A stretch of 64,000 bases of DNA from an uncultured Coriobacteriaceae bacterium (GTDB taxonomy: Bacteria; Actinomycetota; Coriobacteriia; Coriobacteriales; Atopobiaceae). Positions within the stretch are counted from its first letter, which is position 1. The number at the start of each line of letters is the position of its first letter. The translations under genes were made by a program, and so were the position numbers. The notes under the pieces were generated by a model. That model was not told where the DNA came from. It made no database searches and saw only the letters and a program-made list of their open reading frames with translations. This document shows positions 1,560 to 43,283 of the stretch, piece after piece. The stretch lies in the NCBI GenBank assembly GCA_902793465.1, contig CADBDT010000002.1, positions 39,855 to 103,854 of the forward strand. Direction: 5' to 3'.

Positions 1560-3503
1560 CTAGCGATTAAACCCAGAAGACACTCTATTTGCTAGTTGAT
1601 TTGCATGTTTTTGCAAATCAGCCGCTTCGGCAAACATTTCTGCGGAGGTGCCGTCTCCCGCACGCATGCGAGCCCGCAACTCCTTTATCTTTCTTCGGGT
1701 AGAGTAGAGCTCCACGGTGTCCAGAACAAAGCCGATCTTTGCCTCGGACGCCACTCCCTCCACCGTTGCAACACGACCCGAAGAGAGCAGGCGTGGGGCC
1801 TCGGGCACCACGCTTTCGGCTGCACGCACAACGTCACCTGGATCCGTTCCCTCGGGCGTGGCAAGCATGGCCCATGCCATTGCCTCGTGCCGCTCGTCTG
1901 CCCACAAAAACGACGATATCCTGTCCGCATGTTCGCGCATCTGATCCAGGTTCGTTGCCATAAGTGACAAGAGCTCGCGCTCGGCCTGCAGCTGAAGCCG
2001 GTCATCCGAGGTAAGGGCGACTCCCTGCGATGCCCAACCGTCACTTGCGGGTGCGTATGCATCTGACGAGTCAAACACCGGCGGTCCGCCTTGGTAGGCA
2101 TCTACCGGAACGTAGTCGTCCGGAACGTATCCCTGCGAATCGTATGGGGGCGCGTCCGAAACGTTCCCCTGCCTGGTCCCCTGCCTGGACCACGACCCGC
2201 GTTGCGTGTCCTGCGCCTTTGGCAGCGGTTTGGAACGTATGGCGCGCTTTACCTCTTCGGGCGCCACACCCAGCCAGTCACCCACGACCATTGCGTATTC
2301 GTCCAACAGCACGGAATCGCGAAGCGGCGCAAGAACCCCTGCCAGGTCGTCCAGAGCCGCCATGCGCACGCCACCAGGTGCGGTGGGTCCAATGCTTTCC
2401 AGACGCTTGCGCAGCACAAAGTCCATAAGGGGCTCCGCCTTTGCGAGCTCTGCCTCCATGGCGCTGCGAGGGTTGGCGTCCAAAAACTCCGCCGGGTCTT
2501 GCCCGTTGGGCAACACGACACATCGAAGGTCCGCCTCGGACTTGTCTATAAACTGTATGGCGCGCTCGGCAGCGCGCTGGCCAGCGGCATCGCCGTCAAA
2601 CATGCAGATTATGCGCTTTGCAAAGCGCGCAAGGGTACGCACGTGGTCCAGCGAAAAGGACGTGCCCAACGCCGCCACCGTATGGTTAAAGCCGGCTTCG
2701 TGCATTGCCATAACGTCGGTATAGCCCTCACACACAATTGCCTCTCCCTTTGCGGCAATGTGCTCCTTGGCCTTGTCGAAGGCAAACAGGTGCTTGCCCT
2801 TGTGAAATACCGCGGTCTCCTTGGTGTTGAGGTACTTTGGCTTGGCATCGGTAAGTACTCGCCCGCCAAATGCAATGGTTCTGCCCTGCTCGTCTCGTAT
2901 GGGAAACATTACGCGATCGTAAAAGCGGTCCGCCTCGTAACCGTTGCGCAAAACAGAGAGGTCCGCGGCTTCCATCTCCTCGTTGGTAAACCCCTTTGAG
3001 CTCAGGTGCGATACCAGCATCGCGTTTCCCGGAGCATAGCCCAGGCCCCATCGCCTACAGACGTCCGAGCCAAATCCCCTGTTCGAAAGATACGCACGAC
3101 CCTGCGCAGGACCCCTGCCCCGGCCGCGGTTGAGGATCTTGGCATAGTAGGACTGCGCCTCTTCCATACACTCTATGAGCCTGATGCGTCTGGGACCTCT
3201 GCGTCCCCCGTGGCTCTCCACAAGCTCTATGCCCGCGCGGTCTGCAAGGAAGCGCACGGCATCCACGAACTCGAGGTTTTCTCTGTGCATAACGTAGCCA
3301 AACACATCGCCGCCCAAACCGCAGCCAAAGCATTTCCAAAGCCCAGTGGACGGATTGATGTGAAAAGAAGGCGTCTTTTCGTGATGAAACGGGCAGCAGC
3401 CCCACCAGTCGGAACCGCGACGCCTAAGCTCGACGGTCTCGCTCACCAGCTGAAAAAAGTCCGTTGCGCGCCTCACGCGCTCTTTGTCCTCGTCGGTAAT
3501 CAT
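1560..3503 (-). CDS. dnaG: DNA primase
   Basis: Synthesises RNA primers at the replication fork, working with DnaB. The N-terminal CHC2 zinc finger is visible ([14 protein letters not shown], then CFGCG, about residues 35-65). The catalytic TOPRIM core follows, with [14 protein letters not shown] near residue 260 and the acidic FDGDAAG motif near 310. The C-terminal helicase-interaction part is variable and preceded by a low-complexity linker (about 440-490). At 647 residues it has normal length. The start overlaps the ribF stop as ATGA and has a strong AAGGAGGTGAG ribosome-binding site, so translational coupling with ribF is likely. Confidence 0.97.
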
Positions 3504-4516
3504 GCGCTCACCTCCTTAGCAGAACTACCCAAGTTGCAGCGCACCCATTCTATGTTTTCGAGCACGGTGTGCTTGAGCTCGCCCAAGGAGTCAAACTTTC
3601 TTGACGCGCGAAGCCAACGCTCAAACGTAACGGCAACGTTGGCGTCGTATATGTTGCCTTCAAAGCCAACTATGCTTGCCTCCAAAAACGCGCTTCGAGG
3701 GCTATCGAAGGAGGGAGGCGCACCAACGTTTGTCGCCGCTGGCCATGCCTTATTGCCTATTATTAGGTAGCAGGCATACACTCCTTCGGCGGGAAGACAG
3801 TCATGCACGTCGCAGCACACGTTTGCGGTGGGAAAACCAAACGAGGTTCCCTCTCCCCGCCCGTGCCGTACCACGCCGCGCACAAAATGGCTTCGGCCAA
3901 GCAGCGAGGAGACTTCCTCTACCTCGCCACTACGCAACCGTTGTCTTATCCTCGAAGAGGAAACCGTGCTCGAGCCCATTTCTACGAGTCCGTGGGCATG
4001 CATATAAAAGCCGTGCTTGTTGCCAAGCGCTTCGAGCGTGGCGGTATTTCCCGCTCCCCCGCAGCCAAAGCGAAAGTTTGTGCCTACATGCACGCTTACG
4101 GGACGCACCACGTCCATTAGCACGCACGTTACAAAGTCGTTGGGGCTCAGCGAGGCCATGCTGCGATCGAAGGACACAACAACCACCGCATCTACGCCTA
4201 GCGAGAGCAGGGCATTGCGCCTGTCGTGTATGTTAAGCAGCCTGTCACCGGCACGCGGACCCTTTACGACTTCTGCCGGATCGGGATCGAAGGTAACCAC
4301 CACGCAGGGTACGCCACGAGTGCGCGCGTCCTCAACAGCAGCGGCAACAAGCGTCCGATGCCCCATGTGCACACCGTCAAATGCGCCGAGCACCACTACG
4401 GCATCCATAGGGGGATCCGCGCTATATGCGCGCCCACGCGTATATACGACGCCATGGCTCAGCTGCGTGGCAACCAAGGCGTTGGGGGCAAAAAGGACCT
4501 TGGACAGGTCGCTCAT
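3500..4516 (-). CDS. ribF: Bifunctional riboflavin kinase / FAD synthetase
   Basis: Converts riboflavin to FMN and then FAD in the cytoplasm. The N-terminal FMN adenylyltransferase domain has the nucleotidyl-transferase signature GAFDGVHMGH (about residue 45), and the C-terminal flavokinase domain has GFPTANV near residue 220. About 338 residues, the usual RibF length. The frame is open further upstream, but ATG at 4516 overlaps the truB stop as ATGA and yields the expected N terminus MSDLSKVLF. ribF beside truB is a common bacterial arrangement in the nusA-infB operon. Confidence 0.95.
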   Translation of the reverse strand: MSDLSKVLFAPNALVATQLSHGVVYTRGRAYSADPPMDAVVVLGAFDGVHMGHRTLVAAAVEDARTRGVPCVVVTFDPDPAEVVKGPRAGDRLLNIHDRRNALLSLGVDAVVVVSFDRSMASLSPNDFVTCVLMDVVRPVSVHVGTNFRFGCGGAGNTATLEALGNKHGFYMHAHGLVEMGSSTVSSSRIRQRLRSGEVEEVSSLLGRSHFVRGVVRHGRGEGTSFGFPTANVCCDVHDCLPAEGVYACYLIIGNKAWPAATNVGAPPSFDSPRSAFLEASIVGFEGNIYDANVAVTFERWLRASRKFDSLGELKHTVLENIEWVRCNLGSSAKEVSA

Positions 4517-6939: not shown

Positions 6940-9624
6940 CTACTCGGTACGAGCAACCTGCTCTATGCGATACGACTCAATAATATCGTTGGGGTGTATG
7001 TCTTGGAAGTTGTCCAGGCCTACACCGCATTCGAAGCCAGCCTTAACGCTCTTAACGTCGTCCTTGTAGCGCCTAAGCGATGCAACCGTGCCCTCGTATA
7101 CCACAATGCCGTCGCGCACCAGGCGAACATGGTCGTCGTGCGATATCTCGCCCTCCTGCACCATGCAGCCTGCGGCAATACCCACCTTGGGCACCTTAAA
7201 CGTGTCGCGGACCTCAACCGTGGCGGTTTGGACCTCGATTTCTGTGGGCCGGAGCATACCAATACGGGCTGCGTCGATGTCTTCCATTGCCTTGTAAATA
7301 ACGCTGTAGGTACGAATCTCAACGCCGGTGCGCTCGGAAGCCGCGCGCGCCTTGGCATCGGGACGAACGCCAAAGCCAATAATGATAGCGTTCGACGCAT
7401 CGGCAAGCACTACGTCCGTCTCGGATATGGCGCCTACTGCGGAGTGGATTACGTTTATGCGCACCTCGCTCTGGTCCATCTTTGCCAGGGAGTCCTCCAG
7501 GGCCTCGATGGAACCCATAACGTCTGCCTTAATAATAAGGTTGAGCTCCTTGACCTCGGCATCCTCCATCTTGGCAAACAGGTTTTCGAGCGTAACGTGC
7601 TTAACCTTGTTCTGCTCCTCTATGCGGGCCTTTAGCGCACGCTCGTCCGCCAATGCTCGGGCATCGCGGTCGTCCTGGAACACGCGGAACTCGTCGCCGG
7701 CCATGGGCACGCTCTGCAGGCCAAGGATCTCCACGGGATAGCTCGGTGTAGCCGAACGCACCTGCTTGCCCTTTGGGTCCACCATTGCGCGCACCTTGCC
7801 GTAGGACATGCCCGCCACCAGCGCGTCGCCTACGTGCAGCGTACCGCGGGTAACCAGCACCGTGGCAACCGATCCGCGGCCGCGGTCGAGCTTGGCCTCC
7901 AGCACGTTGCCCGACGCAAAGGTGTCGGGGTTAGCCTTGAGCTCCTGAACGTCGGCCTGCAAAAGGACGCTCTCCAGCAGCTCGTCGATGCCAATCTTCT
8001 TCTTGGCCGAGATGTCAACAAACATGTTGTCGCCACCCCAGTCCTCGGGAATAATGCCGTACTCGGTAAGCTCCTGGCGAACACGCGTGGAATCTGCGCC
8101 GGGTTTGTCAATCTTGTTTACGGCAACGATTATGGGTACGTCGGCCGCCTTGGCGTGATTGATGGACTCAATGGTCTGGGGCATTACGCCGTCGTCTGCC
8201 GCAACAATAAGAATAACTATGTCGGTAACCTTGGCTCCACGGGCACGCATGGCGGTAAAGGTCTCGTGACCAGGGGTATCGATAAACGTGATTATGCGTC
8301 CGTCGATGCTTACCTGCGAGGCGCCTATTGCCTGCGTAATGCCGCCGGCCTCGCCCTCGGCAACACCCGTGTGGCGAATGGCGTCCAGCAGGCTCGTCTT
8401 ACCGTGGTCTACGTGGCCCATTACGGTAACCACAGGCGGACGCGGCTTGAGGTCGGCCTCGTCGTCGTAGAAGGTAAAGGAGTTCTCTTCCTCCTTGCTC
8501 ATTACCTTAACGTCGCGACCGAGGTCGTCGGCAACGAGCTCTATCTGGTCGTCGGTCATGCTCTGGGTCATGGTAACGGCCTCGCCCAAAAGGAACATGC
8601 GCTTAATGATCTCGGTCGGGGCAACATCCAGGAGCTTGGCCAAGTCGGCTACGGTTGAGCCCTGCGGGACCTTTACCATGTCGAGCTGAGAAAGATCCTG
8701 GTCGTTGGCTATTGCCTGCTCGATGCGCTGCTGCTCGGCCGCTGCCTCCTGCTGCTTCTTCCTGCGCTCCTTGCGCTTGCGGCGACGGCCGGCCGACTCT
8801 ATGTTGGCCTCACGCACGGCGGCACGGGCGTCGGCAAGAACGCGCTCGCGGTTGTACTCCTCCGCCTCGCGCGCCATACGGCTGTAGCGATCCTCGGAAT
8901 CGTTGCGTTGCTGGCCACCGCGCCCCTTGCGCCTGCCACCGCCACGTCCTGCGACGTTTTCGGGGTCGGGTTGCACGGCGGCCATGGTCTCGGCGCTCAC
9001 GCGCGATGTGGAGCCACGGCGGCCACGCGAAGGCGCGGGCTGCTGCTTTTGCTGCTGCGGGGCCGCCTCGCGCTCGCGACGCCGCTCGCGACGACGCTCC
9101 TCCTCCGCCTGCTTCTTGGCCTTCTCCTCTTCCTCGCGCTTGCGAAGAATCTCGTCCTGCTGAGCAATCTGTTCTAAAAGACTGGAGAAGTTGGTCGTGG
9201 ACTTGGGCGCGTTGTCGCGTACGCGATTGCGCTCGGCTTCCTCGGCGGCGCGACGCTCGGCCTCCAGGCGCTCCTCCTCCGCACGACGGCGCTCGGCCTC
9301 CTCGGCGGCACGACGGCGCTCGGCCTCCTCGCGCTCCTTGCGACGGCGCTCCTCTGCGGCAAGACGCTCGCGCTCGGCCTTTTCGCGCGCCTCGCGCTCG
9401 GCCTTGGCCTTGGCCTCTTCCTCGGCCTTGCGCTGCTTCTCTATCTCCGCGGCACGAGCCTCCATAATGGGCTTGAGCCTCTTGCGTATAATTCCCACAT
9501 AGGCGTCTTCCAGCGCTGAGGAAGCAGCCTTGGCGGGTATCTTCATGTCGTGGAGATGCCCGAGCATCTCTTTGCTCGTCATGCCATATTCTCTGGCAAG
9601 TTCACTTACACGGGTCTTTGCCAT
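6940..9624 (-). CDS. infB: Translation initiation factor IF-2
   Basis: GTPase that brings initiator tRNA to the 30S subunit. IF2-N domain at residues 1-50. Residues about 60-300 are a long charged segment of Glu/Arg/Ala repeats (predicted coiled coil and disorder), typical of actinobacterial IF-2. A second IF2-N-like domain follows near 315. The G domain shows [18 protein letters not shown] and [10 protein letters not shown]-terminal domains C1 and C2 close the 894-residue protein. The highly repetitive charged segment gives long spurious frames on the other strand, which are not genes. Confidence 0.97.
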
Positions 9625-40499: not shown

Positions 40500-43283
40500 T
40501 TACTCCGCAAGGTGCCCCTTAATCGTCGAGACTCCGTCTGTGCAGGTCCAGGACAAGTCGGGACAGGCACGACGGACCAACGCAAGAACGAACTCGTCGG
40601 CGTCGGCCAGCGGGTCCCTGCTACCTTGCGGATAGGTTATCTCAACCGCAATGCTCCCGCCGCCAGTGTCGTCGTACTCAAACGACAGGTGCAGCTCGTC
40701 GCTGGGACCAATTTGCGGAAGGATGGTTTGCATGCACAGGTCCTCCGCAATCGTAAGCATCCTGTTTATGGGCCTGCCCGATATCATATGGCGATGGCCA
40801 AAGCGCTCGATGTCCATGACTATGTGCGCCCCGTCGATGCCAAACCGGCACATGGTGGTCTCAAACACCTGCAGGTGGTTTATGAATCGGCGGGTCTTGT
40901 CCCTCTGCGGATTGCCAAAGACCTCACTGGGACTCCCCTCTTCGTAAATTACTCCTTCGTCCATAAAGAACACGCGGTTGGACACGTCTTTGGCAAAGCG
41001 CATCTCGTGTGTTACCACGAGCATGGTCATGCCGTCCCTGGCAAGGTTGCGGATTACCGTAAGCACCTCGCCCACCATGGTTGGGTCGAGCGCGGAGGTG
41101 GGCTCGTCAAACAGGAGGATCTTGGGATCCATTGCAACGGCCCTCACGATTGCGGCCCTTTGCTGCTGGCCGCCAGAGAGCTGTTCGGGCAGGCTCAGGG
41201 CCTTGTCCGCCAATCCAACCATTTGCAGTAGCTCCATGCTTCTGGTGCAGGCCGCCGCGGAATCGCGCTTAAGGAGCTCGGTCTGGGCGAGCATGAGGTT
41301 CTCCACAATCGTAAGGTGCGCAAACAGGTTGAACGACTGGAAGACCATGCCAATGTTCTCGCGCAACTTGTTGTAGTCATACCCCTCCGCAAGCGTGTCC
41401 TGCCCCTCGAACAGAATTGCCCCGCCGTCGGGCTCCTCCAAATGGTTAATGAGGTTTAGGAACGTGCTCTTTCCCGTTCCCGAGGGCCCAATTACAGAAA
41501 CCACGTCTCCCTCACGGACCTTGCAGCAAACGTCCTTGAGCGGCACCACGTTGCCATAGCTCTTTTTTAGATGATCGACCTCAAGCAGCGTTTGGCCGCC
41601 CCTTTGCCCGTCGGTGCCTCTCGCCGCCTCGCTAAGGCTGGTGTTGTTGGACTCAAACGACTCGACGATTTGGACAATCTGGGGTTTTATGCGCCTTCTT
41701 GCTGGATCGATTCGCCTTTCCACCATGCGCAGCAGCGCTACGAGCCCCGCGCAGAGAACAAAGTAAACGGCTGAGGTAAGCAGCAGCGGGAAGAATGCCT
41801 CGTAGGTCCTGGAGCGAATGATATCGGAGGCCTTTGTGAGGTCGATTACGGAAATATAACCCGCAATGGCGGTCATCTTAACCGTGGCAATAAACTGTCC
41901 GCTATAGGTGGGCAGCATGTGGACTATGGCCTGGGGAAGCACGACCTTGCCAAAAGCCCTTGTCTTCGAAAAGCCGAGCGCCGCCGCAGCCTTGGACTGC
42001 CCTTCTGGAGCCGCGTTGATTCCCGACCGAAAGATTTCCGCGCAGTAGGCGCTGAACTCCACAGAAAACGTTATGGCGCAAATCCAAAAGGCCTCCAGGC
42101 CGCTGTCGCGAAACACGAGGTAGTTAAGGACAAGCAGCAAGACGACCACGGGCAGCGCGCGAAAGATTCGTATGTATAGGCTCGCAAATGCGCTCACAAG
42201 CGGCCGCTTTCGCGTGCGCAAAAAGCAAATGAGCATACCAAGCAGCGTGCCCAAAATGCCCGCGATAAGCGACAGGGCAATTGTTACGCCAAGTCCAGAG
42301 AGTAGAATCTGGTAGCGGTTCTCGTTAATAAACGTACGCTTGAAGCTCGCCGCCAGGTCTTTCCAGAACTGCTCCGCCTTTGGCACCTCCACAAGGACGG
42401 GGTCTCGCTTAACCGCAAGATAGTAGTCGTCCTTCATCAGCGGGTTGGTTACGTTGATGGTCTGGAGCCGTTCCTCCGACGCCGTAACCGAGTCGGCAAC
42501 AACGTCATAGGTGCCAGACGCCAGTCCGGTCATCTCTGCGGACTTGGCAACGGTCTCGTACTCGGGCGTATATCCGCGCGACGCGCAAAACTGGTTGATT
42601 ATCTCTATAAAGAGTCCCGTGAGGGTCTTTCCCTCGTAGAACGTCATTGGCGTCCACAGGCCGTTTGAAGCAATTCGCAGTGGTCCCTTTTCGCCCGAAT
42701 AGGTATAGTTGCCCATGGCACCGCTCTTGCGGTCTTTGTCCTCCCACTTTGTTTTGAGCTTGTCGTATTCTCCGCTGCTCTTGAGCTCGGCCAAAAACTG
42801 GTTGAGCTCGTCGCACAACGCCTTGCCTCGGTCGGACTTCTGCACACCAAAACCAAAGTCAACGGTTGCAAAGGGCTGCTCTATGAGCGCCAGGTCTGGA
42901 TGGGATTCGGCAAGCGGCTTTTGCTCGTCAATAAAGCTTATTACGGCATCCACCTCGCCAGATGCAAGACCGTTATAGCAGTCGGACAAGGAGTTGTAGT
43001 GGCGAATCTCCCCCTGCGGAAAACGCTTTGTGATTTCCGTTTCCCATTCCTTGTTAGTTATGCATCCAAAGCGCGTGCCAGATGCCTCCAGATCCTTGAG
43101 CGTCTTGGTGGTTGTGGGACAGCCGTCCTCGTTTAGGCCCTGCGTGGGGTCGGGAACGGTTGTCGTTCCAATTAGCTGCGGAATAAGGATAATAACAACG
43201 ATTGCGATGGCAATAAGGATTTCGTAGAAGGCAAGAGGCCTCTGTTTGGCTGTTTGCTTTGTCTTGCGATTGTCCGCGCGCAC
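40500..43283 (-). CDS. Single-polypeptide amino-acid ABC importer: permuted binding domain, permease, ATPase and extra C-terminal domain
   Basis: 927 residues that join all parts of a polar amino-acid importer. A membrane anchor (about 20-40) exports the binding domain. Residues about 60-190 match the second half of a family 3 binding protein (LKDLEASGTRFGC...NGLASGEVDAVISF...FGFGVQKSD...LNQFLAELKSSGEYDKLKTKWE). Residues about 202-295 match the first half (PLRIASNGLWTPMTFYEG...YDVVADSVTASEERLQTINVTNPL). The halves are thus in reverse of the usual order. The permease (about 325-545) has AAAALGFSKTRAFGKVVLPQA. The ATPase (about 575-805) has GPSGTGKST, LSGGQQQRA and LLFDEPTSALD. The last 120 residues look like a degenerate GHKL ATPase fold (INRMLTIAEDLC). 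Start GTG 43283. Confidence 0.9.
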   Translation of the reverse strand: MRADNRKTKQTAKQRPLAFYEILIAIAIVVIILIPQLIGTTTVPDPTQGLNEDGCPTTTKTLKDLEASGTRFGCITNKEWETEITKRFPQGEIRHYNSLSDCYNGLASGEVDAVISFIDEQKPLAESHPDLALIEQPFATVDFGFGVQKSDRGKALCDELNQFLAELKSSGEYDKLKTKWEDKDRKSGAMGNYTYSGEKGPLRIASNGLWTPMTFYEGKTLTGLFIEIINQFCASRGYTPEYETVAKSAEMTGLASGTYDVVADSVTASEERLQTINVTNPLMKDDYYLAVKRDPVLVEVPKAEQFWKDLAASFKRTFINENRYQILLSGLGVTIALSLIAGILGTLLGMLICFLRTRKRPLVSAFASLYIRIFRALPVVVLLLVLNYLVFRDSGLEAFWICAITFSVEFSAYCAEIFRSGINAAPEGQSKAAAALGFSKTRAFGKVVLPQAIVHMLPTYSGQFIATVKMTAIAGYISVIDLTKASDIIRSRTYEAFFPLLLTSAVYFVLCAGLVALLRMVERRIDPARRRIKPQIVQIVESFESNNTSLSEAARGTDGQRGGQTLLEVDHLKKSYGNVVPLKDVCCKVREGDVVSVIGPSGTGKSTFLNLINHLEEPDGGAILFEGQDTLAEGYDYNKLRENIGMVFQSFNLFAHLTIVENLMLAQTELLKRDSAAACTRSMELLQMVGLADKALSLPEQLSGGQQQRAAIVRAVAMDPKILLFDEPTSALDPTMVGEVLTVIRNLARDGMTMLVVTHEMRFAKDVSNRVFFMDEGVIYEEGSPSEVFGNPQRDKTRRFINHLQVFETTMCRFGIDGAHIVMDIERFGHRHMISGRPINRMLTIAEDLCMQTILPQIGPSDELHLSFEYDDTGGGSIAVEITYPQGSRDPLADADEFVLALVRRACPDLSWTCTDGVSTIKGHLAE

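Follow-up and report, generated by a model that had tools for sequence, protein, structure and literature searches.

Natural circular permutation is usually encountered as a lone, ancient oddity. Natural permutants are known in binding-protein families other than the one considered here (PMC4990184; PMC2395249), and the authors who described the permuted lipoprotein TpMglB-2 proposed membrane anchoring as the reason for the rearrangement (PMC4990184). For the amino-acid-binding solute-binding proteins of family 3, the closest described system is GlnP of the Lactococcus lactis GlnPQ transporter (6h30; PMC8025302), in which binding domains of this family are fused through short linkers to a PAAT permease. 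The importer described here shares that fusion. Unlike the importer, GlnP carries both of its binding domains in normal order, has its ATPase (GlnQ) as a separate protein, and is tethered to its permease by the domain's natural C-terminus. On sequence comparison, it is very likely that the protein examined here is a one-chain importer whose receptor is a true family-3 circular permutant, that such permutants have had repeated origins, and that the chain ends in a degenerate RsbW-like tail.

The importer gene was found in a window, meaning the whole stretch of DNA that was analyzed (64,000 nucleotides), from an uncultured gut member of the Coriobacteriia. Its parts are given below, with residue numbers of the protein in parentheses.

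40500-43283, minus strand: importer open reading frame with a GTG start, 927 residues, comprising an anchor, a permuted family-3 binding domain, a permease, an ATPase and an RsbW-like domain
43164..43220, minus strand: putative N-terminal hydrophobic anchor (22-40), placed by hydropathy (2.8) and by comparison of N-termini, with no lipobox and no AxA site
42744..43112, minus strand: second lobe and natural C-terminal end of the solute-binding protein (58-180), normal-profile positions 97-215 at 59.5 bits; also Pfam
42687..42743, minus strand: linker between the natural C- and N-terminal ends (181-199), the gap between the two profile matches
42402..42686, minus strand: first-lobe half, with hinge strand 1 at its end (200-294), normal-profile positions 1-95 at 50.6 bits; also Pfam
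41709..42251, minus strand: permease domain BPD_transp_1 (345-525), from Pfam, with an EAA-type coupling motif read from the sequence
40878..41588, minus strand: ABC ATPase of the amino-acid-importer type (566-802), with intact Walker A, signature, Walker B and H-loop
40503..40877, minus strand: C-terminal domain of predicted RsbW/SpoIIAB fold (HATPase_c_2, GHKL; 803-927), with degenerate N-box and D-box

The presence of a BPD_transp_1 permease together with an amino-acid-importer ATPase whose motifs are intact places the protein, by sequence, among PAAT-type ABC importers. The Pfam ABC_tran match covers residues 582-730, and Walker A (GPSGTGKST), the signature (LSGGQQQR), Walker B (ILLFDEP) and the H-loop can all be read from the sequence, whereas the last 120 residues gave no Pfam match. 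The protein is probably a complete type I ABC importer of the amino-acid class in a single chain, acting as a homodimer. Given the missing lipobox and AxA site, residues 22-40 plausibly form an uncleaved anchor, and the N-termini of orthologues agree with this.

A search of the whole importer with the Pfam profile SBP_bac_3 (PF00497) gave 73.0 bits against a curated cut-off of 26.4, with the profile matched in swapped order: positions 46-129 align with residues ~96-178 and are followed by positions 1-103 on residues 202-305. The first of these pieces scores 28.5 bits when the second-lobe half is searched alone. A non-circular test profile was made from 53 normal-order proteins with no permuted members, and it matched residues 58-180 with its positions 97-215 (59.5 bits) and residues 200-294 with its positions 1-95 (50.6 bits), compared with a best score of 3.2 bits among 200 shuffled controls. 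Each position of this profile is represented once and the natural ends are joined by a linker, so the domain is neither truncated nor doubled. These alignments show a domain that runs from lobe 2 through the end of lobe 1 and the linker to the first half of lobe 1, in place of the usual SBP_bac_3 order of first half of lobe 1, lobe 2 and end of lobe 1. With positions 97-215 preceding positions 1-95, it is classed as a circular permutant and not as an ordinary member of the family.

A first-pass annotation of this DNA, made from the letters alone, had proposed precisely such a permutation, with a second-lobe half at residues 60-190, a first-lobe half at 202-295 and the linker EDKDRKSGAMGNYTYSGEKG between them. 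Separate profile searches recovered both halves in the reversed order, and these boundaries proved right to within ~10 residues, with the short linker falling in the gap at residues 181-199. The annotation had also placed the new ends at the hinge and the permease directly beyond the binding domain. The cut position on the normal profile agrees with the former, since it adjoins the first hinge strand and lies between it and lobe 2, and the BPD_transp_1 match at residues 345-525 bears out the latter. Lobes and hinge strands were placed on profile positions by homology to known family-3 structures and not from a model; an AlphaFold prediction of the permuted domain from an alignment of only 4 rows gave a pLDDT of 46 and a pTM of 0.41. 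Among PDB entries, L. lactis GlnP (6h30) matches best: its SBD1-SBD2 tandem aligns collinearly as a single segment that runs from the second half of SBD1 across the linker to the first half of SBD2. Single-domain binding proteins of the PDB match piecewise, and the piece order is swapped in both alignments that were printed out.

Relatives were surveyed with an alignment of the permuted domain, and a collinear full-length match marked a candidate for the permuted order. Candidates were verified by mapping, frame by frame, the first half of lobe 1 (A), lobe 2 with the end of lobe 1 (B), the permease (T) and the ATPase (N). Permuted relatives occur in many genomes: about 20 of 119 from Coriobacteriia, 3 from the window's phylum outside that class and about 14 of 398 in a sample of the Bacillota phylum, all lower bounds under strict thresholds. 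No relatives of the permuted domain were found in viral contigs. The BATN architecture is represented by five proteins from five genomes (the window, L009, L010, L011 and L108), and BAT by 15 once duplicates are removed. Orthologues of the window type come from two Coriobacteriia metagenome-assembled genomes and one from Lachnospiraceae, with binding domains 65-80% identical and an unchanged architecture. Two permuted units lie in tandem in a BABAT chain (L105, 2954-5290), for which a normal domain (166.6 bits) inside a split one is an equally good reading, and a BABA chain (L106, 1-1725) runs off its contig.

The permuted unit also stands alone. About 30 lipoproteins of about 270-320 residues consist of just the two halves, with the lipobox immediately preceding the new N-terminus, and separate permease and ATPase genes are usually adjacent in the neighborhoods that were read. 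Permeases beside free permuted lipoproteins (L024, 2321-3628, and similarly L025-L040) carry an N-terminal extension of ~150-200 residues ahead of the permease domain, which in L024 has no Pfam match and appears FHA-like by eye. Normal-order relatives in the surveyed data take the forms ABT, ABABT, ABAB and free AB, in keeping with the annotation's statement that GlnP-type fusions have their lobes in normal order. Several candidates were set aside. L090 and L107 are normal ABABT tandems despite a full-length match to the permuted profile, L095 and L118 are normal ABAB tandems, L094 consists of two adjacent AB genes, and the apparent ABAT intermediate in G522 is a frame cut by the contig end.

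Residues of the ligand site are unevenly preserved. The lobe 1 arginine that contacts the ligand carboxylate is kept in all five BATN proteins and in nearly all permutants, and 27 of 28 free permutants retain the lobe 2 aspartate. At this lobe 2 position, an Asp or Glu in GlnP (E184/D417), four of the five BATN proteins have Phe and one has Tyr; a DE pair two residues further on is conserved in four of the five. Because the GlnP substitution D417F prevents both closing and binding (PMC8025302), the ligand of the window's lineage is uncertain: it may be something other than an ordinary amino acid, or else binding by this domain may be weak.

The absence of this aspartate, the tandem as best PDB match and the poor AlphaFold model could all be expected if the protein were a decayed GlnP-type tandem, with two truncated half-domains that fold separately and form no working receptor. 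This explanation is highly improbable, given that five BATN proteins from as many genomes are conserved with an invariant ligand arginine, that many free permutants amount to exactly the two halves with full binding-site residues, and that no other binding-protein gene was found beside the permuted fusions at the loci read.

The window's genome itself holds several such proteins. A search with SBP_bac_3 returned 19 matches, and five further fusions of a permuted binding domain to a permease were recognized (L012, L013, L015, L017 and L018), most of them with an adjoining ATPase gene. The one in L015 (1968-3712, minus strand), the sixth permuted fusion of the genome, is spread over two frames, through either decay or an assembly error. 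These paralogues carry cleavable signals or lipoboxes. Thus, the double tethering that the first-pass annotation had envisaged, by an N-terminal anchor at one new end and the permease at the other, is plausible for the window protein, which has neither a lipobox nor an AxA site and whose orthologues are alike, but it is not a general companion of permutation, as the cleavable signals of the paralogues and the many free lipoproteins among the relatives demonstrate.

At least four distinct cut sites can be distinguished on the normal profile, all within the second-lobe half and none in lobe 1. Most permutants, the window protein included, are cut at 95|97, while others are cut at 105|106 (L087-L089, L092 and L096), at 125|126 (L097, L098 and L114) or, in L147 only, at ~163|166, near the second hinge. 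The location of every cut in the second-lobe half fits the anchoring idea put forward for TpMglB-2, without proving it. The L147 protein (2230-3117, minus strand) is a lipoprotein of class III, a single case in 299 genomes. Free lipoproteins cut at 125|126 inside lobe 2 (L112, 585-1547; L113, 2296-3117; L114, 2732-3652) each have their own permease and ATPase genes. A class II query found no match in 245 genomes of the class to which G479 belongs. In L133, profile positions 99-122 (~24 positions at the start of lobe 2) are present twice, before and after, and this double segment looks like the remnant of a duplication followed by truncation.

Binding-protein trees were built with the halves of each permutant restored to their natural order. 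In a tree of 130 binding proteins the permutants are scattered over several clades amid normal-order relatives, and a permease tree, which has no residues in common with the first, likewise contains several permutant clades. The closest pair of opposite order, L099 (permuted) and L136 (normal), is 62% identical, and both halves of L099 have the same nearest normal relative. A chimeric origin of the halves is accordingly not supported for recent permutants, whose halves share normal relatives; those of the old fused clade have diverged too far for this to be judged. A more careful tree of 43 sequences implies at least four order changes on well-supported branches, with 6-7 in bootstrap trees, and never yields a single clade.

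A single ancestral permutation that was later reversed in some lines might be suspected from the placement of nearly all fused permutants, the window protein among them, in one clade. Such a history is scarcely credible, however, when forcing all 57 permutants into one clade costs 230 log-likelihood units (AU test, p 2.5e-46), when bootstrap trees call for 6-7 order changes, when there are four different cut sites, and when the permease tree concurs with repeated origins. Judged from these trees, permutation arose several times in family-3 binding proteins, and the window's fused clade is one among several independent origins. This recurrence, the several origins and the nature of the extra C-terminal domain go beyond what the first-pass annotation saw.

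That C-terminal domain, a tail of ~120 residues on the ATPase, was present in 14 of about 90 sampled ATPases, all 14 of them in permuted fusions or in operons adjoining them. Similar RsbW-like tails occur in L012, L013, L015, L017, L104, L105, L110, L111, L116 and L133. Pfam HATPase_c_2 gave no match on the window's tail, its relatives fall just below the cut-off (best 26.0 bits versus 27.4), and a profile search against PDB sequences found nothing. An AlphaFold model of the tail (pLDDT 90.9, pTM 0.86) matches the anti-sigma factors UsfX, SpoIIAB and RsbW with Z scores of 11.7-13.9 over 111-120 residues, the best being 8ih8 (Z 13.9, with an rmsd of 2.5 across 120 residues); a TM score of 0.79 was also obtained against this fold. 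The tail is thus predicted to adopt the RsbW/SpoIIAB anti-sigma (GHKL) fold. Its N-box region reads EDLCMQ and its DxG region ITYPQG, with the N-box Asn and the DxG Asp both absent; with the boxes so degenerate, a role in binding or dimerization is likelier than kinase activity, and the tail is probably a regulatory domain for dimerization or partner binding.

Genes near one of the other one-chain importers have a bearing on possible partners. In L010, a STAS-plus-APH-kinase gene lies upstream (2879-4060, minus strand), and the gene directly downstream encodes a SpoIIE-type phosphatase (7687-9240, plus strand), an arrangement that hints at partner-switch signaling. No SpoIIE-type or STAS neighbors were found at the window or at the other orthologous loci read.

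A working scheme for the importer can be proposed. The two halves would pack into one receptor of the ordinary bilobed kind, with the natural ends in lobe 1 closed by the linker of ~20 residues. Because the new ends were neighbors in the parent fold, the N-terminal anchor and the permease stalk would leave from one hinge point on the lobe 2 side, so that lobe 2 would carry the receptor's tether in place of lobe 1. The receptor would then capture its ligand, close, and dock on the permease as in GlnPQ. Such permutants would most likely have originated by tandem duplication, after which the first copy lost its first half and the second copy its last half. In ionotropic glutamate receptors, the channel is inserted at the corresponding point, between hinge strand 1 and lobe 2, and the binding domain is tethered via lobe 2. 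It is conceivable, if rather doubtful, that the importer is a transporter-receptor in which a lobe 2 tether at this same point couples closure to the permease and ATPase, the RsbW-like pseudo-kinase signals to STAS partners, and the shift of the tether was selected repeatedly.

In a homodimer, the lobe 2 half of one chain might instead pair with the lobe 1 half of the other, giving two receptors assembled in trans. The importer is expected to be homodimeric, linkers of ~20 residues could permit such an exchange, and the BABAT tandem chains are compatible with exchanged pairing. Nevertheless, the free lipoprotein permutants lack a dimeric permease fusion and so have no built-in partner, and the internal linker is similar in length to the 14-residue linker of GlnP (PMC8025302), which together make a domain swap improbable. 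Folding of both halves within one chain is the preferred arrangement.

In the open-access literature, we found no account of permuted family-3 binding proteins, whether fused to a permease or of repeated origin, and no description of an anti-sigma-type domain joined to an ABC importer ATPase, a union present in the main permuted clade. The tail has the same predicted fold as SpoIIAB, RsbW and UsfX (1th8, 6m37, 8ih8) and differs from them in its fusion to an importer ATPase and in the loss of the conserved N-box Asn and DxG Asp. Among permuted receptors, TpMglB-2 (Tp0684, 'Type Ic / Cluster Bc'; PMC4990184) is similarly a natural permutant and a membrane-anchored binding protein, but it is a sugar-binding type I protein, belongs to a different fold class, exists as a free lipoprotein and is cut at another site; the window's domain lies outside that Type I / Cluster B family and matches the amino-acid-binding proteins of family 3. 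Natural permutation among binding proteins is also documented by the glycine-betaine binders 2b4l, 1r9l and 1sw1 relative to molybdate binders and CysB (CPSARST, PMC2395249). Those proteins are distant (<24% identity) and their relationship was detected from structures, whereas family-3 pairs of opposite order are up to 62% identical. Here, one common receptor family has been permuted repeatedly, at several cut sites, with near normal-order kin and intermediate-looking forms such as tandems and a vestigial duplicate, as if evolution repeatedly re-wires the point at which the receptor is tethered to the membrane. Family-3 permutants thereby allow two questions to be tested directly: by what route natural permutation takes place, and whether ligand delivery depends on which lobe bears the tether.
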